Source: Deltaproteobacteria bacterium (GTDB lineage Bacteria; Myxococcota_C; UBA6777). From it: 64,000 bases of DNA. Where the stretch lies: the NCBI GenBank assembly GCA_002731275.1, contig PCBK01000052.1, forward strand, positions 62,001 to 126,000, in the 5' to 3' direction. The position numbers and the translations under genes were made by a program. The first letter of the stretch is position 1, and each line of letters starts with the position of its first letter. Below the pieces are notes generated by a model, which was given only the letters and a program-made list of their open reading frames with translations, was not told where the DNA came from and ran no database searches. This document shows positions 37,721-44,703 of this stretch, piece by piece.

Positions 37721-38407
37721 ATGGAACAAAAAACCAATACAGGTCAAGTGCATAAAATGCTCATCCGTCTCTCACTGCTCATCCCATTGATATGGTTGGT
37801 CGCTTGTCAGCCAGTGCTTGAGATCGATCTCCAAAGCATCAACTGCGGAACGATTGACGGTTTAGCAGATCACTTCTCAAAAAACGCTGAGCTGTACGGC
37901 TGCATGGTCTTCATCTACGAAAAACAAACGCCTGAAGAATCCTACAGCTACCCAATCTCCATCAAAGCCGATGGGCAGATCGTATTTCGTGGTGCCGAAG
38001 GGGACAACACTCCGGTCCTCCCTCCCCAATCAAAGGGACAAAAAGTGCATACTCGATTGTACTTGTTCCAACTGAGCAAGCAGTCGGATCTCGCAGCCGT
38101 CGCACAGCATAGAGTCAGCTGCCTTCCTATGGGAACAGTCAGCAACAACGCCAAGACGCCAACCTACACTTGCTTAAGTCAAGAGCACAAAGACTGTTGG
38201 ATGATGTTGCTGCTTCAACCAACATTCGTCAACGAGACTTACTCCGTGGCATCGTTTCTTGAGCAGGTGCGTTTGCAATCCCCTCCAGAGGGCAGCCAAA
38301 ACTGTCGGGTCTGTACAAGAGAAATTTGTGGAGATGGAATTGACAACAATTGTGACAAAGTTGTCGATGATTATGATGATGCCACAGGCCAAAAGTGTGA
38401 AAAATAA
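37721..38407 (+). CDS. Lipoprotein with one MopE-type Asp/Cys motif
   Basis: A 228-aa putative lipoprotein (lipobox LVAC). The body has scattered Cys pairs and no recognised domain. Near the end, ICGDGIDNNCDKVVDDY is the metal-binding motif seen in MopE-type proteins and repeated in the next gene. Two starts compete: 37721 (GAGG ten bases upstream) and 37757, which gives a shorter, more ordinary signal peptide. Probably functions with the large repeat protein downstream, 171 bases away. Confidence 0.7.
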   Translation: MEQKTNTGQVHKMLIRLSLLIPLIWLVACQPVLEIDLQSINCGTIDGLADHFSKNAELYGCMVFIYEKQTPEESYSYPISIKADGQIVFRGAEGDNTPVLPPQSKGQKVHTRLYLFQLSKQSDLAAVAQHRVSCLPMGTVSNNAKTPTYTCLSQEHKDCWMMLLLQPTFVNETYSVASFLEQVRLQSPPEGSQNCRVCTREICGDGIDNNCDKVVDDYDDATGQKCEK

Positions 38408-38578
38408 ACGCCATTCTCCGTCTGGAGGGTGAAAGAGCAAGGTCTCCCACAAAGAAGAGAGACCACATGACCTGTGGGGAAGTTCATTATATAGATGTAA
38501 TTCAATTGGATGATATGTGTTCGAGATCACTGACACGTTGAGTTCGTATGGTTTACCAATGTTGTGAGGATGAACGCT

Positions 38579-41500
38579 ATGCGTGTTCGCTTGTTTTCAA
38601 TCGCCTTTCTTTTTTTTGGATACACACTGCTCAATCTATACGCTTGCAGTGAAGGCAAACAAATTTGCCAAAAATGCACATCCAACCTGGACTGTGTAGA
38701 GTGTGGTGGGGTTTGTTTTCAGGGACAATGTCAAATCAACTCAAAACCAGATGGTGGCACAAGTACCGTCTGTACTGTTGGTGAGACAAGGGAGTGTTAT
38801 AACGGCGCTCCCGAGACCAAGGGTGTAGGAACCTGCCGCGCAGGGACCCAAACTTGTCTGGCGGGTGGAACATGGGGACAATGTACAGGCGAAGTCACCC
38901 CTGTGATCGAGAGTTACGATAAAAAAGACAATGACTGTGATGGACAAGTCGACGAAGGCATTCGCATCTGCCAGCCTGTCGGTGAAGAGATCCCCTGTTA
39001 CCCCAAAGACGTCACTGTAGGTTGTACACTGACAGACGCCAAGACCAATAAGTGGACATGTGTCGGCGCTTGTACGACAGGAAAGGCGCTTTGTACAGGT
39101 CAACCAGGTGTATGCAAGCTACCAGTCACTCCCAAGGTCGAGATTTGTAACAACAACATCGACGAAGACTGTGATGGAGAAGTCGATAACAAGAGCAAAC
39201 TCGGCCAACCCTGTGAAGACAAAGATCTCCCAGACAAATGCCAAAAAGGGATCTACGCGTGTGACGCAAAAACCAACGAGATGTACTGCAAACCCAACGG
39301 CGCAATCGAAGAGGTGTGTGACGGTAAAGACAACGACTGTGATGGAAAAGTCGACAACGTCAGAGGCAAAGACGAAGCCCTCACAAAAGATTGTAGCTAC
39401 TCCGGCCCCAAGGGCACCAAAGATGTCGGTGAGTGTAAGTCTTCATCGCAAAAATGTGTCAACGGACAGTGGGACGGACAATGTGGCACAGAGATCCTCC
39501 CTAAAACAGAAGAATGTAACGGTAAAGATGACGACTGCGACGGAAAAGTCGACAACCGACCGGGCACCCCACAGCCGCTCACAAAATCCTGCTACGAAGG
39601 TCCTCCTGGCACACGCAATGTAGGTGAATGCAAAGACGGGAAACAAGCCTGTATCAACGGAAAATGGGACACAACATGTGCTGGCGCGACGCTCCCCACA
39701 GACGAAAAATTCTGTCAGGGCGCTACGGACTCCAAAGACTTCGACTGCGACGGCATCCCCAACAACTCAACACTTCTCGATAAACCCTGCATCTCACAGG
39801 TCAATAAAGGACTCTGTCGGTACGGCAAATATATCTGCTACCAAGGGCAGATCGCCTGCCAACCACAGCTTGCCCCCAACAGCAACAAAGAAGAGTGCAA
39901 CGGTAAAGATGATGATTGCGACGGTTTCATCGACAACGGAGCCGCAGGATCAGCCACTCAGATGACAAAGAGTTGCTACACAGGAAATGTCTCGACACAC
40001 AACCGAGGCATCTGCACACCCGGTAGCGCAGTCTGTGACAAAGGTCGCTGGAGTGAGTGTCAAGGCGAAGTCACACCACGCCCCGAGCTGTGCAATGGCC
40101 AGGACGACAACTGTAACGGTCAAGCAGACGAAGGAACAACCTGTGGCCCCTGCTCTCCTGGACAACAAAAACAATGTTGGATCTCCCCTGCAAATCCCGT
40201 CAATCCTCTCGTGGGAACTTGCCAACCAGGTGTCGAAACCTGTACCGCAGCAGGTCGTTGGAGTGGGATCTGCCAGGGCGCCCAGTCCCCTCAGCCCGAA
40301 CAGTGTAATGGACAAGACGACGACTGTGACGGTCAAGTTGACAACCTCAAAGGCACCGCCGCCCCCATGTCCCAAGAGTGTTATACGGGCGACAAAGCCA
40401 ATCTCGGAAAAGGCGAATGTCGCGGAGGTATTCAGCTTTGTATACAAGGGAAATGGTCTCAAACCTGCTTCGCCGAGCAAAAACCAGAGCTCGAGATCTG
40501 CGACAAACTCGACAATGACTGTGATGGTTCCATTGACGAAAATGGGATCTGCTCCACGAACAAGCCACGCGCAGTCAAAGAGCTCTGCACAGATGCTGCT
40601 GGTGCCCCAAGCTACAAAAAGTGTAACACTGGACTATATTGCCTTCAGGCCGCAGAAACATCGGCTGATCAGTTCTGCTATCAATCCTGTAGCACAAGTG
40701 CAGATTGCAGCAAGAACACCACAGACGGACGTACTGAATGTCAGGATCTCGGTACAGACGAAAAGACTGGACAACGCGTCAAGATCTGCATTCGCAGAGC
40801 AGGCGACAGTGCGTATTGTGACTTCGCGAGAGGGTTCTTCTGCAGTGGCGGGCTCTTCTGTGATGAAGGGCTTAAGATCTGTAGACGCCCAACACAAGCT
40901 GGATTGTATGCCCCCTGCGAAGGTAGTACAGGCGCAATCTGTGACAGTGGCTATTACTGTGACAAAGCCTTCATCCACTCCTCCAAAGATCACGGTTACT
41001 GCTTACGGACATGTCAGACATCAGCCGAATGTCAGGGCGCCCCATGTGTATCCCCCCCAAGCGGCGGTCCCAAGATCTGTGTCCCTGTTGGTCAAAAGAC
41101 AGAAGACCAGACCTGTTCACATCTCTACACAGGGAACGGTCCCTACGATCCCAAAGATATGTGTCAAGCACAACACATCTGCTTGCGGCAAAATCCAAGC
41201 AACCCCAATGGGGTCTGCTTAAAGGCCATTCAAACAGCGACATGTACGGCAAAAACATGCCCAACAGGACGAGCCTGTGCGCCTTCCAACGGTGTGGTTG
41301 TTTGTCCCAAGGCTTGCAAGCAAGACACAGACTGTGCAACTGACCAGACTTGCTTGACGATCCAGCCAGGACCACCTCCGATCCAGTTCTGTATGGCCAA
41401 AACACCAACAGGACAACAAAACTTCGGCGACATCTGTGGTAAAGGACAGTACTGTCAACCGGGTATGACGTGCTTCCAGACCAATCCTAACAAGGCGGGA

Positions 41501-41674
41501 GTGTGTACGTACCTTGGGTGTACAACAGACGCAGATTGCGTGTATGTCCCCACAGGCTCAAAGTGCAAGTCCGCTGGTACAGCAAAGGCCTGTCTCTTCC
41601 CCTGCACGTCCAACAACGACTGCCCCAACGCCAACTTGAAGTGTGATCCTATCTACAACTTCTGTATTCCCTAA
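38579..41674 (+). CDS. Large Cys-rich surface lipoprotein with nine MopE-type repeats
   Basis: A 1031-aa exported protein (signal peptide, LYAC lipobox). From about residue 55 to 655 it is made of ~60-70-residue units, each with Cys-Gly-rich strands, a GKWxxxC segment and a DxDNDCDGxVD loop. Nine loops are visible (KKDNDCDGQVDEG, GKDNDCDGKVDNV, GQDDNCNGQADEG and others). The spacing of Asp residues suggests calcium or other cation binding, as proposed for the MopE putative metal-binding motif. The remaining ~370 residues are different Cys-rich knots (TSADCSKN, CAPSNGVVVCPKAC). The start at 38579 follows GAGG by nine bases; earlier starts lack a signal-like beginning. Probably surface-exposed. 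Confidence 0.8.
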   Translation: MRVRLFSIAFLFFGYTLLNLYACSEGKQICQKCTSNLDCVECGGVCFQGQCQINSKPDGGTSTVCTVGETRECYNGAPETKGVGTCRAGTQTCLAGGTWGQCTGEVTPVIESYDKKDNDCDGQVDEGIRICQPVGEEIPCYPKDVTVGCTLTDAKTNKWTCVGACTTGKALCTGQPGVCKLPVTPKVEICNNNIDEDCDGEVDNKSKLGQPCEDKDLPDKCQKGIYACDAKTNEMYCKPNGAIEEVCDGKDNDCDGKVDNVRGKDEALTKDCSYSGPKGTKDVGECKSSSQKCVNGQWDGQCGTEILPKTEECNGKDDDCDGKVDNRPGTPQPLTKSCYEGPPGTRNVGECKDGKQACINGKWDTTCAGATLPTDEKFCQGATDSKDFDCDGIPNNSTLLDKPCISQVNKGLCRYGKYICYQGQIACQPQLAPNSNKEECNGKDDDCDGFIDNGAAGSATQMTKSCYTGNVSTHNRGICTPGSAVCDKGRWSECQGEVTPRPELCNGQDDNCNGQADEGTTCGPCSPGQQKQCWISPANPVNPLVGTCQPGVETCTAAGRWSGICQGAQSPQPEQCNGQDDDCDGQVDNLKGTAAPMSQECYTGDKANLGKGECRGGIQLCIQGKWSQTCFAEQKPELEICDKLDNDCDGSIDENGICSTNKPRAVKELCTDAAGAPSYKKCNTGLYCLQAAETSADQFCYQSCSTSADCSKNTTDGRTECQDLGTDEKTGQRVKICIRRAGDSAYCDFARGFFCSGGLFCDEGLKICRRPTQAGLYAPCEGSTGAICDSGYYCDKAFIHSSKDHGYCLRTCQTSAECQGAPCVSPPSGGPKICVPVGQKTEDQTCSHLYTGNGPYDPKDMCQAQHICLRQNPSNPNGVCLKAIQTATCTAKTCPTGRACAPSNGVVVCPKACKQDTDCATDQTCLTIQPGPPPIQFCMAKTPTGQQNFGDICGKGQYCQPGMTCFQTNPNKAGVCTYLGCTTDADCVYVPTGSKCKSAGTAKACLFPCTSNNDCPNANLKCDPIYNFCIP

Positions 41675-41904: not shown

Positions 41905-43602
41905 TTGGCGCAGGGAGAAAGATTAGGACGATATACCCTGATCGAACAGATCGCCATAGGCGGAATGGCCGAGATCTGGCTCGCTCGAATGGGTGGTGTT
42001 GAGGGATTCGAAAAACTCGTTGTCATCAAACGAATCAAAGATCACCTCGCTAAAGAGCCGAGCTTTGTCAGGATGTTTCTGAACGAGGCTCGACTCGCAG
42101 CGCAGCTCAACCACCCCAACATTTGCCAGATTTATGACCTCGGAAAGCTCAATCAGAGCTACTTCATCGCGATGGAGTATCTATTTGGTCGTGATCTTTC
42201 TGAGATCACTCCGAAGTCAGAGCGCGAAGGGATCCCATTCCCACTCGAATATGCGATCAAGATTTTGCTCCATGTGTGTGAGGGTCTCTACTACGCACAT
42301 GGCAAGACAGATCCATTTGGAGAACCTCTGCACATCGTACACCGGGACATCTCTCCACAAAACATCTTTGTGTCCTTCGATGGCAACGTAAAGATCCTCG
42401 ATTTTGGGATCGCAAAGGCCGCCAACCAATACGAAAAAACACAAGAAGGCACCCTCAAAGGCAAGCTCTCCTATATGTCTCCAGAACAGATCTTGGGACA
42501 GCCTTACGACGGACGTTCAGACCTCTTTGGTCTCGGTGTTGTCTTCTACGAACTCGTCACAGGTTACAAACTCTTCACAGGTGACAACGAGCTTGCAGTG
42601 CTCAAGTCGATCGTCGACGTCCCTGTCTACCCCCCGTCCTATTTTAACGACAAGATCCCAGAAGAACTCGACCAGATCATTCTCAAAGCGTTGGAAAAAG
42701 ATCCAGCCGATCGTTTTCAAAACGCTTGGGAGATGCAGCAAGAGCTCAACCAACTCATGTCACAATTCGAGTTTAACCCGAGCAATTTGCATCTCTCCAA
42801 CTTTCTCAAACAGCTCTTCGCAGATGAAATAGAGCGAGAAGTCCGCTATCTCAAAGAGCGGCTTGTTGAAGTCGTGAAGCGCGGAGCTGACATCGAAGAA
42901 GACAGTATCGACGACTCACTCTCCCAAGATGAGTTGGACTTCTTGCTCGAAGAAGCGATCTCGATCGACAATCTCGTCACAACGGACAAACAGTCAGAGG
43001 AAAAGGGCGAAAAACAGGGAAGCACAGACACACAGCCAGATCTAGACGCTCTCGATTTGGATGCACCAGATGCGCTAGACGATGACGACACGCTGTCACC
43101 ATCTGTCCCCAAGGGCAACGCGCACAAACCACAAGACCGCGACGATTTTTCAGACGATGATGATACACTTCATCCCGAAGATCCGCTCGCTCCACAGTAT
43201 GTGCTCGATCCAGAGTACGATCCTGCGATGTTGTCTGCGATGCCCAGACACATCCCCTCTCGCCCATTTCGCGACACGTATCACTTTGCTCTGCCTTCCA
43301 ACGACGAGCACAACGACACGGAAGACATCGCGCTCGAAAAAGTAGAACGTTTTCTGGACACTACAAACCTACCGCAGTCGCCTATCGAGCACCAAGATGA
43401 GCAGGGATTCGACGAAAATGAAGACCCACTCCTTGACGTAAACCAAATCTTATTTACAATGCGCTTTCGGATACAGGAATACGAGCAGCTCAAAAAGATC
43501 GCAGCACGTCGCTCTATCCCGCTTGATCAGCTCCTGCGGGAAATGATCCACCGCGCAATGCAACATTATCAAGATGAAGAAGACCTCAACGAAAGCTCTT
43601 GA
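41905..43602 (+). CDS. Ser/Thr protein kinase with C-terminal ribbon-helix-helix-like segment
   Basis: A 565-aa cytoplasmic kinase. The kinase domain (~9-285) has IAIGGMAEIWLA, VVIKRI, HRDISPQNIFV and DFGIAKA, the Ser-for-Lys HRD loop common in myxobacterial kinases, and MSPEQI. An acidic disordered region (~330-510) follows. The last ~50 residues (FTMRFRIQEYEQLKKIAARR, then SIPLDQLLREMIHRAM) read like a ribbon-helix-helix DNA-binding unit: one strand, two helices. No membrane helix. The start is TTG with GAGGA upstream. The tail could give direct DNA binding or only dimerisation; that part is inference. Confidence 0.88.
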   Translation: MAQGERLGRYTLIEQIAIGGMAEIWLARMGGVEGFEKLVVIKRIKDHLAKEPSFVRMFLNEARLAAQLNHPNICQIYDLGKLNQSYFIAMEYLFGRDLSEITPKSEREGIPFPLEYAIKILLHVCEGLYYAHGKTDPFGEPLHIVHRDISPQNIFVSFDGNVKILDFGIAKAANQYEKTQEGTLKGKLSYMSPEQILGQPYDGRSDLFGLGVVFYELVTGYKLFTGDNELAVLKSIVDVPVYPPSYFNDKIPEELDQIILKALEKDPADRFQNAWEMQQELNQLMSQFEFNPSNLHLSNFLKQLFADEIEREVRYLKERLVEVVKRGADIEEDSIDDSLSQDELDFLLEEAISIDNLVTTDKQSEEKGEKQGSTDTQPDLDALDLDAPDALDDDDTLSPSVPKGNAHKPQDRDDFSDDDDTLHPEDPLAPQYVLDPEYDPAMLSAMPRHIPSRPFRDTYHFALPSNDEHNDTEDIALEKVERFLDTTNLPQSPIEHQDEQGFDENEDPLLDVNQILFTMRFRIQEYEQLKKIAARRSIPLDQLLREMIHRAMQHYQDEEDLNESS

Positions 43603-43716
43603 CCAAAGGGCATCACGAAAAAAAGATTGACCGCATTGTGCCGCACCGCTACAATCCCTCAACTTTAGAACGAATTGCGGTACAAATTGCGTATCTGGAA
43701 GTAAGGACAACGGACA

Positions 43717-44703
43717 ATGAAGAGAAAGTTCCTGTGCTTGTTGCTTCTCACCGGCATTCTCCCCCTAGCCTTTCTCTCTGGGGGATGCACCTCCTCTTCT
43801 TGCGAAAAGCTACACGAATCCATCAATAAGTGTACGATCCAGTGGGTAGGGAAATACGGACGAAAAGCAAAGAAGACCTGTACACTAGGCGAGAAAAAAC
43901 AACAATGCAACGCAAGTGAATTGTGTATCCAGCCCCCTGGAGTCGCATTTCCTAGCTGCTACGAACCCGGAAACGTCTACAAAGAACAACGGATTATCCT
44001 CAACAATGTCCGTCAGCTTTGTGACCCCATCTTTAAATCGCGCCAGGCCGCTTACATTCGATGTATCGAAGCATCCGAATGTGACGTGAAAAAATTCAAC
44101 GCCTGCGCCGCCAAAATGACCAACCAGATCAAAAAAGAGAAAGAAAAAGGCCCCGGTGGCGCGCTCATCTCTTTCATCATCTTCCTGGTCATCACGATCC
44201 TCGTCGAAGGATTGTTGGTCTTTGTTGGCGTCAAAATCGTCGACCGCAACAACCCCAAAAACACCATCCCACGTGGACTGGTCTTGGGTGCAGTCATCGC
44301 AGTCGTCACATTCCCGCTCGTCTACTTCTCGCCTCTCGCAGGTGTGTTGGTCTCGTCGAGTTTACTGTTTAGTTTGATCATCCTCTTTTACCAACAAGAG
44401 GCTTTCCTCCCCAGTATCTTCACGGCGATCCACATCGTCTTTGTATGGAGTGTCTTCACCTTCCTCGTCGCAGGTGAGTTTATGGGTGGAAAAGCATGGC
44501 TGGTGCAAAGTGCTGCGTTCCGACGCGCCATGCAAACCAGACACGGTAAAATGGCTGAAGCACGACAAGAATTCGAGAAAGAGCAACGCAAACTCGCCCT
44601 CGAACGAAAACGCGCTGCAGAGCTGAAAAAACAACAAGAAGAAGAAAAACGACGCCAAGAGAAAGAGAAAAAAGAGAAGGAAAAAGAGAAAGAGAAAAAG
44701 TAA
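43717..44703 (+). CDS. Cys-rich lipoprotein with four membrane helices and charged tail
   Basis: A 328-aa protein with an unusual plan: a lipoprotein signal (LSGGC, Cys24), a ~110-residue Cys-rich domain (CEKLHESINKC ... ECDVKKFNACAAK), then four hydrophobic helices (ISFIIFLVITILVEGLLVFVG; LVLGAVIAVVTFPLVYFS; AGVLVSSSLLFSLIILFY; IFTAIHIVFVWSVFTFLVA), and a ~65-residue Lys/Glu helix of single-alpha-helix type ending in EKEKEKK. If the lipid anchor is real the Cys-rich part is outside and, with four helices, the tail is also outside; otherwise the first segment is a plain signal peptide. No family recognised. It lies ~115 bases after the kinase gene. Confidence 0.65.
   Translation: MKRKFLCLLLLTGILPLAFLSGGCTSSSCEKLHESINKCTIQWVGKYGRKAKKTCTLGEKKQQCNASELCIQPPGVAFPSCYEPGNVYKEQRIILNNVRQLCDPIFKSRQAAYIRCIEASECDVKKFNACAAKMTNQIKKEKEKGPGGALISFIIFLVITILVEGLLVFVGVKIVDRNNPKNTIPRGLVLGAVIAVVTFPLVYFSPLAGVLVSSSLLFSLIILFYQQEAFLPSIFTAIHIVFVWSVFTFLVAGEFMGGKAWLVQSAAFRRAMQTRHGKMAEARQEFEKEQRKLALERKRAAELKKQQEEEKRRQEKEKKEKEKEKEKK

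Follow-up and report, generated by a model that had tools for sequence, protein, structure and literature searches.

A widespread family of predicted soluble Hanks-type kinases in Myxococcota carries a C-terminal ribbon–helix–helix-type module that may serve kinase dimerization

A review of Ser/Thr kinases describes them as not being DNA-binding proteins, though it notes the DNA-binding domain of YabT (PMC6213207). A gene at 41905..43602 on the forward strand of the window, by which we mean the whole 64,000-nucleotide stretch analyzed here, raises the question of what a DNA-binding type of fold might be doing on such a kinase. The original prediction read its product as a Ser/Thr kinase whose C-terminal tail has the strand–helix–helix pattern of Arc/CopG-type proteins, and proposed that this tail binds DNA and couples phosphorylation to promoters. 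Is the tail a ribbon–helix–helix (RHH) module at all, how far does its union with a kinase reach, and does its conservation point to DNA or to something else?

The open reading frame encodes 565 residues from a TTG start, and the kinase part of the prediction is borne out by a match to Pfam Pkinase over residues 35-272 (E=3.5e-41). The kinase domain extends over residues ~12-272 (41938..42720), and the motifs that mark Hanks-type kinases (VAIK, HRD, DFG, and an APE-type motif) are intact as VVIK, HRDISPQN, DFGIAKA, and SPEQ. No transmembrane-like or other hydrophobic stretch was found in the protein, which, as judged from its sequence, is a cytosolic Hanks-type Ser/Thr kinase. Alignment of the orthologs with Myxococcota sequences reveals a post-kinase signature, FEFNPSNLHLSNFLKQLFADEIEREVRYL (residues 288-316, 42766..42852), which the Myxococcota orthologs carry as ..EFTPSNIHLSNFLKQLFxDELEEE... 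This is followed by a long and divergent acidic linker of ~187 residues (residues ~328-514, 42886..43446) with a computed net charge of -44, and the RHH module lies C-terminal to the linker at residues ~515-556. The module is predicted to consist of a strand, FTMRF (residues 517-521, 43453..43467), with T518 and R520 facing outward in the hhalign register to RHH_1 members; R522 at the turn directly after it; helix A (residues 523-535, 43471..43509); and helix B, which spans residues 540-564 in the AlphaFold2 (AF2) model (43522..43596), with a conserved core to about residue 556 in the family alignment.

The TTG start is aligned in 5/5 orthologous loci (41905 in the window; L002, L011, L012, and L039), and a TGTGnTATA-like extended -10 element apparently lies upstream of it in the alignment of these five. 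At the other end of the gene (43580-43640), the window reads NESS-stop after the RHH module, and its +1 frame, ..DQRASRKKD-stop, resembles by eye the R.AAT.KK[DY] sequence with which three relatives end in frame. The last residues of the window kinase may thus have been shortened by a small indel or an assembly error; we do not favor the alternative of programmed frameshifting at the stop codon. A sigma-70-like promoter, TTGACC-17-TACAAT, is present at 43627-43655, with hexamers identical in four orthologous loci and a diverging spacer. Since it is conserved and overlaps the kinase stop codon in relatives, the downstream gene at 43717, which is lipoprotein-like and matches no Pfam family, is probably transcribed from a promoter of its own. 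Upstream, 38564-41674 and 37721-38407 encode Cys-rich MopE-type putative metal-binding repeat proteins, and a MopE-repeat-like ORF likewise lies just upstream of the J134 kinase (L039).

As a single sequence, the window tail yields nothing above threshold in Pfam, NCBIfam, or PDB searches, with RHH_4 at 12-14 bits against a cut-off of 25 and a weak DUF6290 match also below its cut-off, so that the RHH assignment rests on the orthologs. Two Myxococcota ortholog tails exceed the RHH_1 cut-off of 20.5 bits (L087 at 24.0 and L102 at 28.4); RHH_1 is matched by 15/23 family tails at E<=1, the other commonest families include several further RHH ones, and for most tails there are weak matches to several RHH families. 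When a core profile of four orthologs was aligned with 24 Pfam RHH_1 members of CopG type from other genomes, hhalign returned a probability of 92.5 and a score of 30.6 over 39 columns with no gaps, against a mean of 8.2 and a maximum of 15.6 in 200 column shuffles. The four-sequence tail profile, searched against the PDB, found HP0222 best (1x93, E=0.039), AvtR second, and NikA somewhat lower, all three of them known RHH proteins.

Structural modeling agrees with these comparisons. The AF2 model of the window tail has two helices with RHH spacing, with a four-residue loop between helix A and helix B and pLDDT above 90 across most of both helices, and the model of the G003 ortholog tail is likewise built of two helices with this spacing. 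DSSP calls no strand in the window model, as expected of a single chain, since the RHH strand finds its pairing partner only in the dimer; the strand is therefore a prediction taken from the hhalign register. In Foldseek searches, about the first 40 rows obtained with the window model are RHH proteins, as are most rows obtained with the G003 model, and RHH proteins also dominate the VIA-align list of the window model (Z up to 6.2). Individually, the Foldseek matches have weak E-values (0.1 and above), as expected from only 40 residues, and the weight therefore lies on the uniformity of the match list. Could the tail be a mere look-alike, a helical hairpin of a coiled or LarC-like kind with no RHH kinship? 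Such a reading would accommodate the subthreshold scores of the window tail, the strandless monomer model, and the LarC C-termini that also appeared in single-sequence searches, but it is hard to reconcile with ortholog tails that pass RHH_1's own cut-off, with the matches of the family to RHH_1 and several other RHH families and to HP0222, AvtR, and NikA in the PDB, or with an hhalign score never reached by shuffles, and we regard it as very improbable. The LarC matches, which come from a single-sequence search, and a YiiM_3-alpha match, which was obtained with one sequence only and spans the linker side and the strand, were set aside. Profile and model evidence together thus uphold the Arc/CopG-type pattern of the original prediction and indicate that the tail is a genuine RHH-type module.

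The module is not peculiar to the window. In the same genome family, G002, G003, and G001 carry it in the same position, preceded by divergent linkers, in G001 across an assembly gap. A first survey with the four-sequence tail profile matched 24/195 genomes of Myxococcota, the phylum of Hyalangium, nearly all within frames of 400-520 aa, and the matched proteins are kinases that share the post-kinase signature and bear an RHH tail, usually ending in LK[YF]R. With a 23-sequence profile at E<=0.001, the number rose to 129 of the same 195 genomes, mostly in frames of ~400-500 aa; by row count, the best match lies in a frame of at least 358 aa for about 120 of the 129. The kinase-plus-RHH architecture was read directly in 51 genomes. 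Across the domain, a sample of 386 genomes gave kinase frames only in the window family and one Myxococcota genome, its other matches being frames of 69-228 aa that by sequence are free-standing RHH-like proteins, and a tblastn search of plasmids gave one weak match only. The RHH-tailed kinase thus appears widespread in Myxococcota and is no lone fusion. J134 has an ortholog, but its contig stops inside the linker and no tail was found in its genome. As for other RHH proteins, Pfam RHH_1 finds none in the window genome (G000, E<=1) and none in the relatives G001-G004 (E<=1e-4), and finds one in 48/96 genomes of a wider sample; a distant N-terminal RHH-like ORF is present in the window genome at G000:C138 (L081).

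The kinase domains point to common descent. That of the window shares 55-67% identity with the Myxococcota RHH-tailed kinases and at most about 49% with sampled paralogs from its own genome family. In a tree of 59 kinase domains (IQ-TREE, LG+C20), in which tail-less kinases are represented by a sample only, the RHH-tailed kinases group with the truncated J134 copy in a single clade (100/99) to the exclusion of the other sampled kinases, and inside it the window family (100/95) stands beside the Myxococcota (100/99). The simplest reading is that the tail was gained once, before the two split; a tailed kinase may also have been transferred between them. On these sequence comparisons, the window kinase is an orthologous copy within an old family of soluble RHH-tailed Hanks-type kinases.

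What has been conserved in the tail? In DNA-binding RHH proteins, the outward-alternating residues of the strand read bases, as is established for Arc, MetJ, and CopG, and T-x-R is a common DNA-type pattern. The window and G002 have such polar/basic residues (T-x-R), whereas G001 and G003, of the same genome family, have V-x-S at these positions. Among 55 unique aligned kinase tails, the residue corresponding to R520 is P in 14, S in 9, D in 8, Q in 6, R in 5, A in 4, T in 4, E in 2, and others in the rest, so that D, E, or P occupies this base-reading position in 24/55 tails against 0/24 reference RHH_1 domains (Fisher p about 3e-5, relatedness ignored). By comparison, alignment positions L17, A21, and L40, taken for hydrophobic core positions, are near-invariant. 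It looks as though the RHH domain has been retained while its DNA-reading face drifts, and a kept core with a face that has drifted to P or D is more readily accounted for by the pairing of two kinases than by the reading of DNA. Two further features are well conserved. A basic residue (R/K) precedes helix B in 87% of members (column 23 of the family alignment) and could make a phosphate contact, hence a contact with DNA; the family tail ends in K/R (91%), then Y/F/W, then R. Most Myxococcota members (the L087-L174 kinases) stop exactly at LK[YF]R or LRFR, which is their C-terminus.

These patterns bear unevenly on the proposal that the tail is a working DNA-binding domain, whose dimer at promoters or on the nucleoid would make phosphorylation local, or whose binding to DNA would activate the kinase. 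The window protein does not combine a lack of RHH matches with a lack of basic strand surface, the combination that would have contradicted the original prediction. T518/R520 and the T-x-R of G002 fit the common strand pattern, basic residues precede helix B, and RHH domains are mostly DNA binders. There is also a precedent for DNA-dependent activation of a Hanks kinase in YabT (PMC3708118, PMC6333020). As a statement on the family, the claim of promoter coupling fares less well, given the D, E, or P at the base-reading position, the V-x-S of G001 and G003, a tail net charge near zero in most members, and the absence of an inverted repeat that might serve as an operator, either near the start of the kinase gene or in the downstream gap, the last point being weak evidence. 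We consider a working DNA-binding tail a tentative reading that is rather unlikely to be the right one. A narrower version, in which the kinase's RHH dimer docks it directly on DNA in some lineages, the window's included, with activation tied to genomic sites and the acidic linker as a built-in DNA-mimic off-switch, seems to us more doubtful still.

The reading that we prefer, and hold to be somewhat more probable than its rivals taken together, is that the RHH tail dimerizes the kinase for trans-autophosphorylation, with DNA or ligand binding a lineage-specific matter. RHH domains are intertwined dimers (PMC7156744), and Hanks kinases such as PknB are activated by dimerization (PMC6213207, PMC6333020). 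By analogy with this known biology of both protein classes, the module would make the kinase an obligate dimer, the two strands pairing to a sheet and the helices interlocking; two catalytic domains, each tethered by a flexible acidic linker, would be held together by the RHH dimer; and their proximity would favor trans-autophosphorylation and so activation. Strand-face DNA contact may occur in the T-x-R lineages, the window included, but would not be a family-wide constraint. Against a role in dimerization only, note that the acidic linker, which reaches 252 residues in the family, is long for just pairing kinases, that the window's own strand carries DNA-type residues, and that the R/K before helix B (87% in the family) could signal a phosphate contact.

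Another possibility is that the tail is a regulatory dimer whose state is set by a signal, through binding of a ligand such as a nucleotide or, by analogy with the binding of toxins by RHH antitoxins, of a partner protein. Such a function would suit the conserved LK[YF]R end, aromatic and basic in character, for which we know of no role in ordinary DNA contact. A nucleotide precedent exists in the RHH protein CdbA of Myxococcus xanthus, which binds c-di-GMP (PMC7156744) and appears among the structural matches of the window tail. No conserved neighbor gene suggesting a partner was found, however; the Myxococcota kinase neighborhoods were seen as small local gene sets only, which gave no functional clue and in which crude gene calling missed the kinase in three loci. 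This reading appears improbable to us, and dimerization for trans-autophosphorylation remains the one that we favor.

How does the family relate to known systems? The tail is like the CopG/Arc/MetJ superfamily (Pfam RHH_1 PF01402, RHH_4, NikA-like) in spacing, hydrophobic pattern, and profile and fold matches, but is unlike these proteins in being C-terminal on a protein kinase and in that its DNA-reading strand face is not conserved. CdbA has no kinase part; it is a c-di-GMP receptor and a small, tetrameric protein of the nucleoid (PMC7156744). In trifunctional PutA, whose RHH structurally matches the window tail, the domain is also fused to an enzyme (PMC5293562); there, however, it is N-terminal, the enzyme is a flavoenzyme, and the protein represses its own operon. 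YabT of Bacillus subtilis is likewise a Hanks kinase with a C-terminal region beyond the kinase domain and a precedent for DNA control (PMC3708118, PMC6333020), but unlike the window kinase, it is anchored in the membrane and relies on a basic juxtamembrane stretch with no RHH fold. PknB/Stk1-type PASTA kinases belong to the same kinase superfamily, and the window protein finds its best kinase match in an NCBIfam PASTA-kinase model, though with a score of 276.7 against the curated 450, no PASTA match, and no transmembrane segment. Full-text literature searches found no description of an RHH–kinase fusion; they covered the myxobacterial kinome literature only in part, and earlier notice is possible.

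A kinase family that carries an RHH module bears directly on the view that Ser/Thr kinases do not bind DNA (PMC6213207). As single-contig Myxococcota genomes carry it (e.g. G222, G229, and G237), the RHH-tailed kinase is open to study in cultured organisms. Myxobacteria possess very many signaling kinases, and for most of these the mode of activation is unexplained. For the kinase described here, which is vertically conserved, the RHH module offers a simple and testable mechanism of activation.
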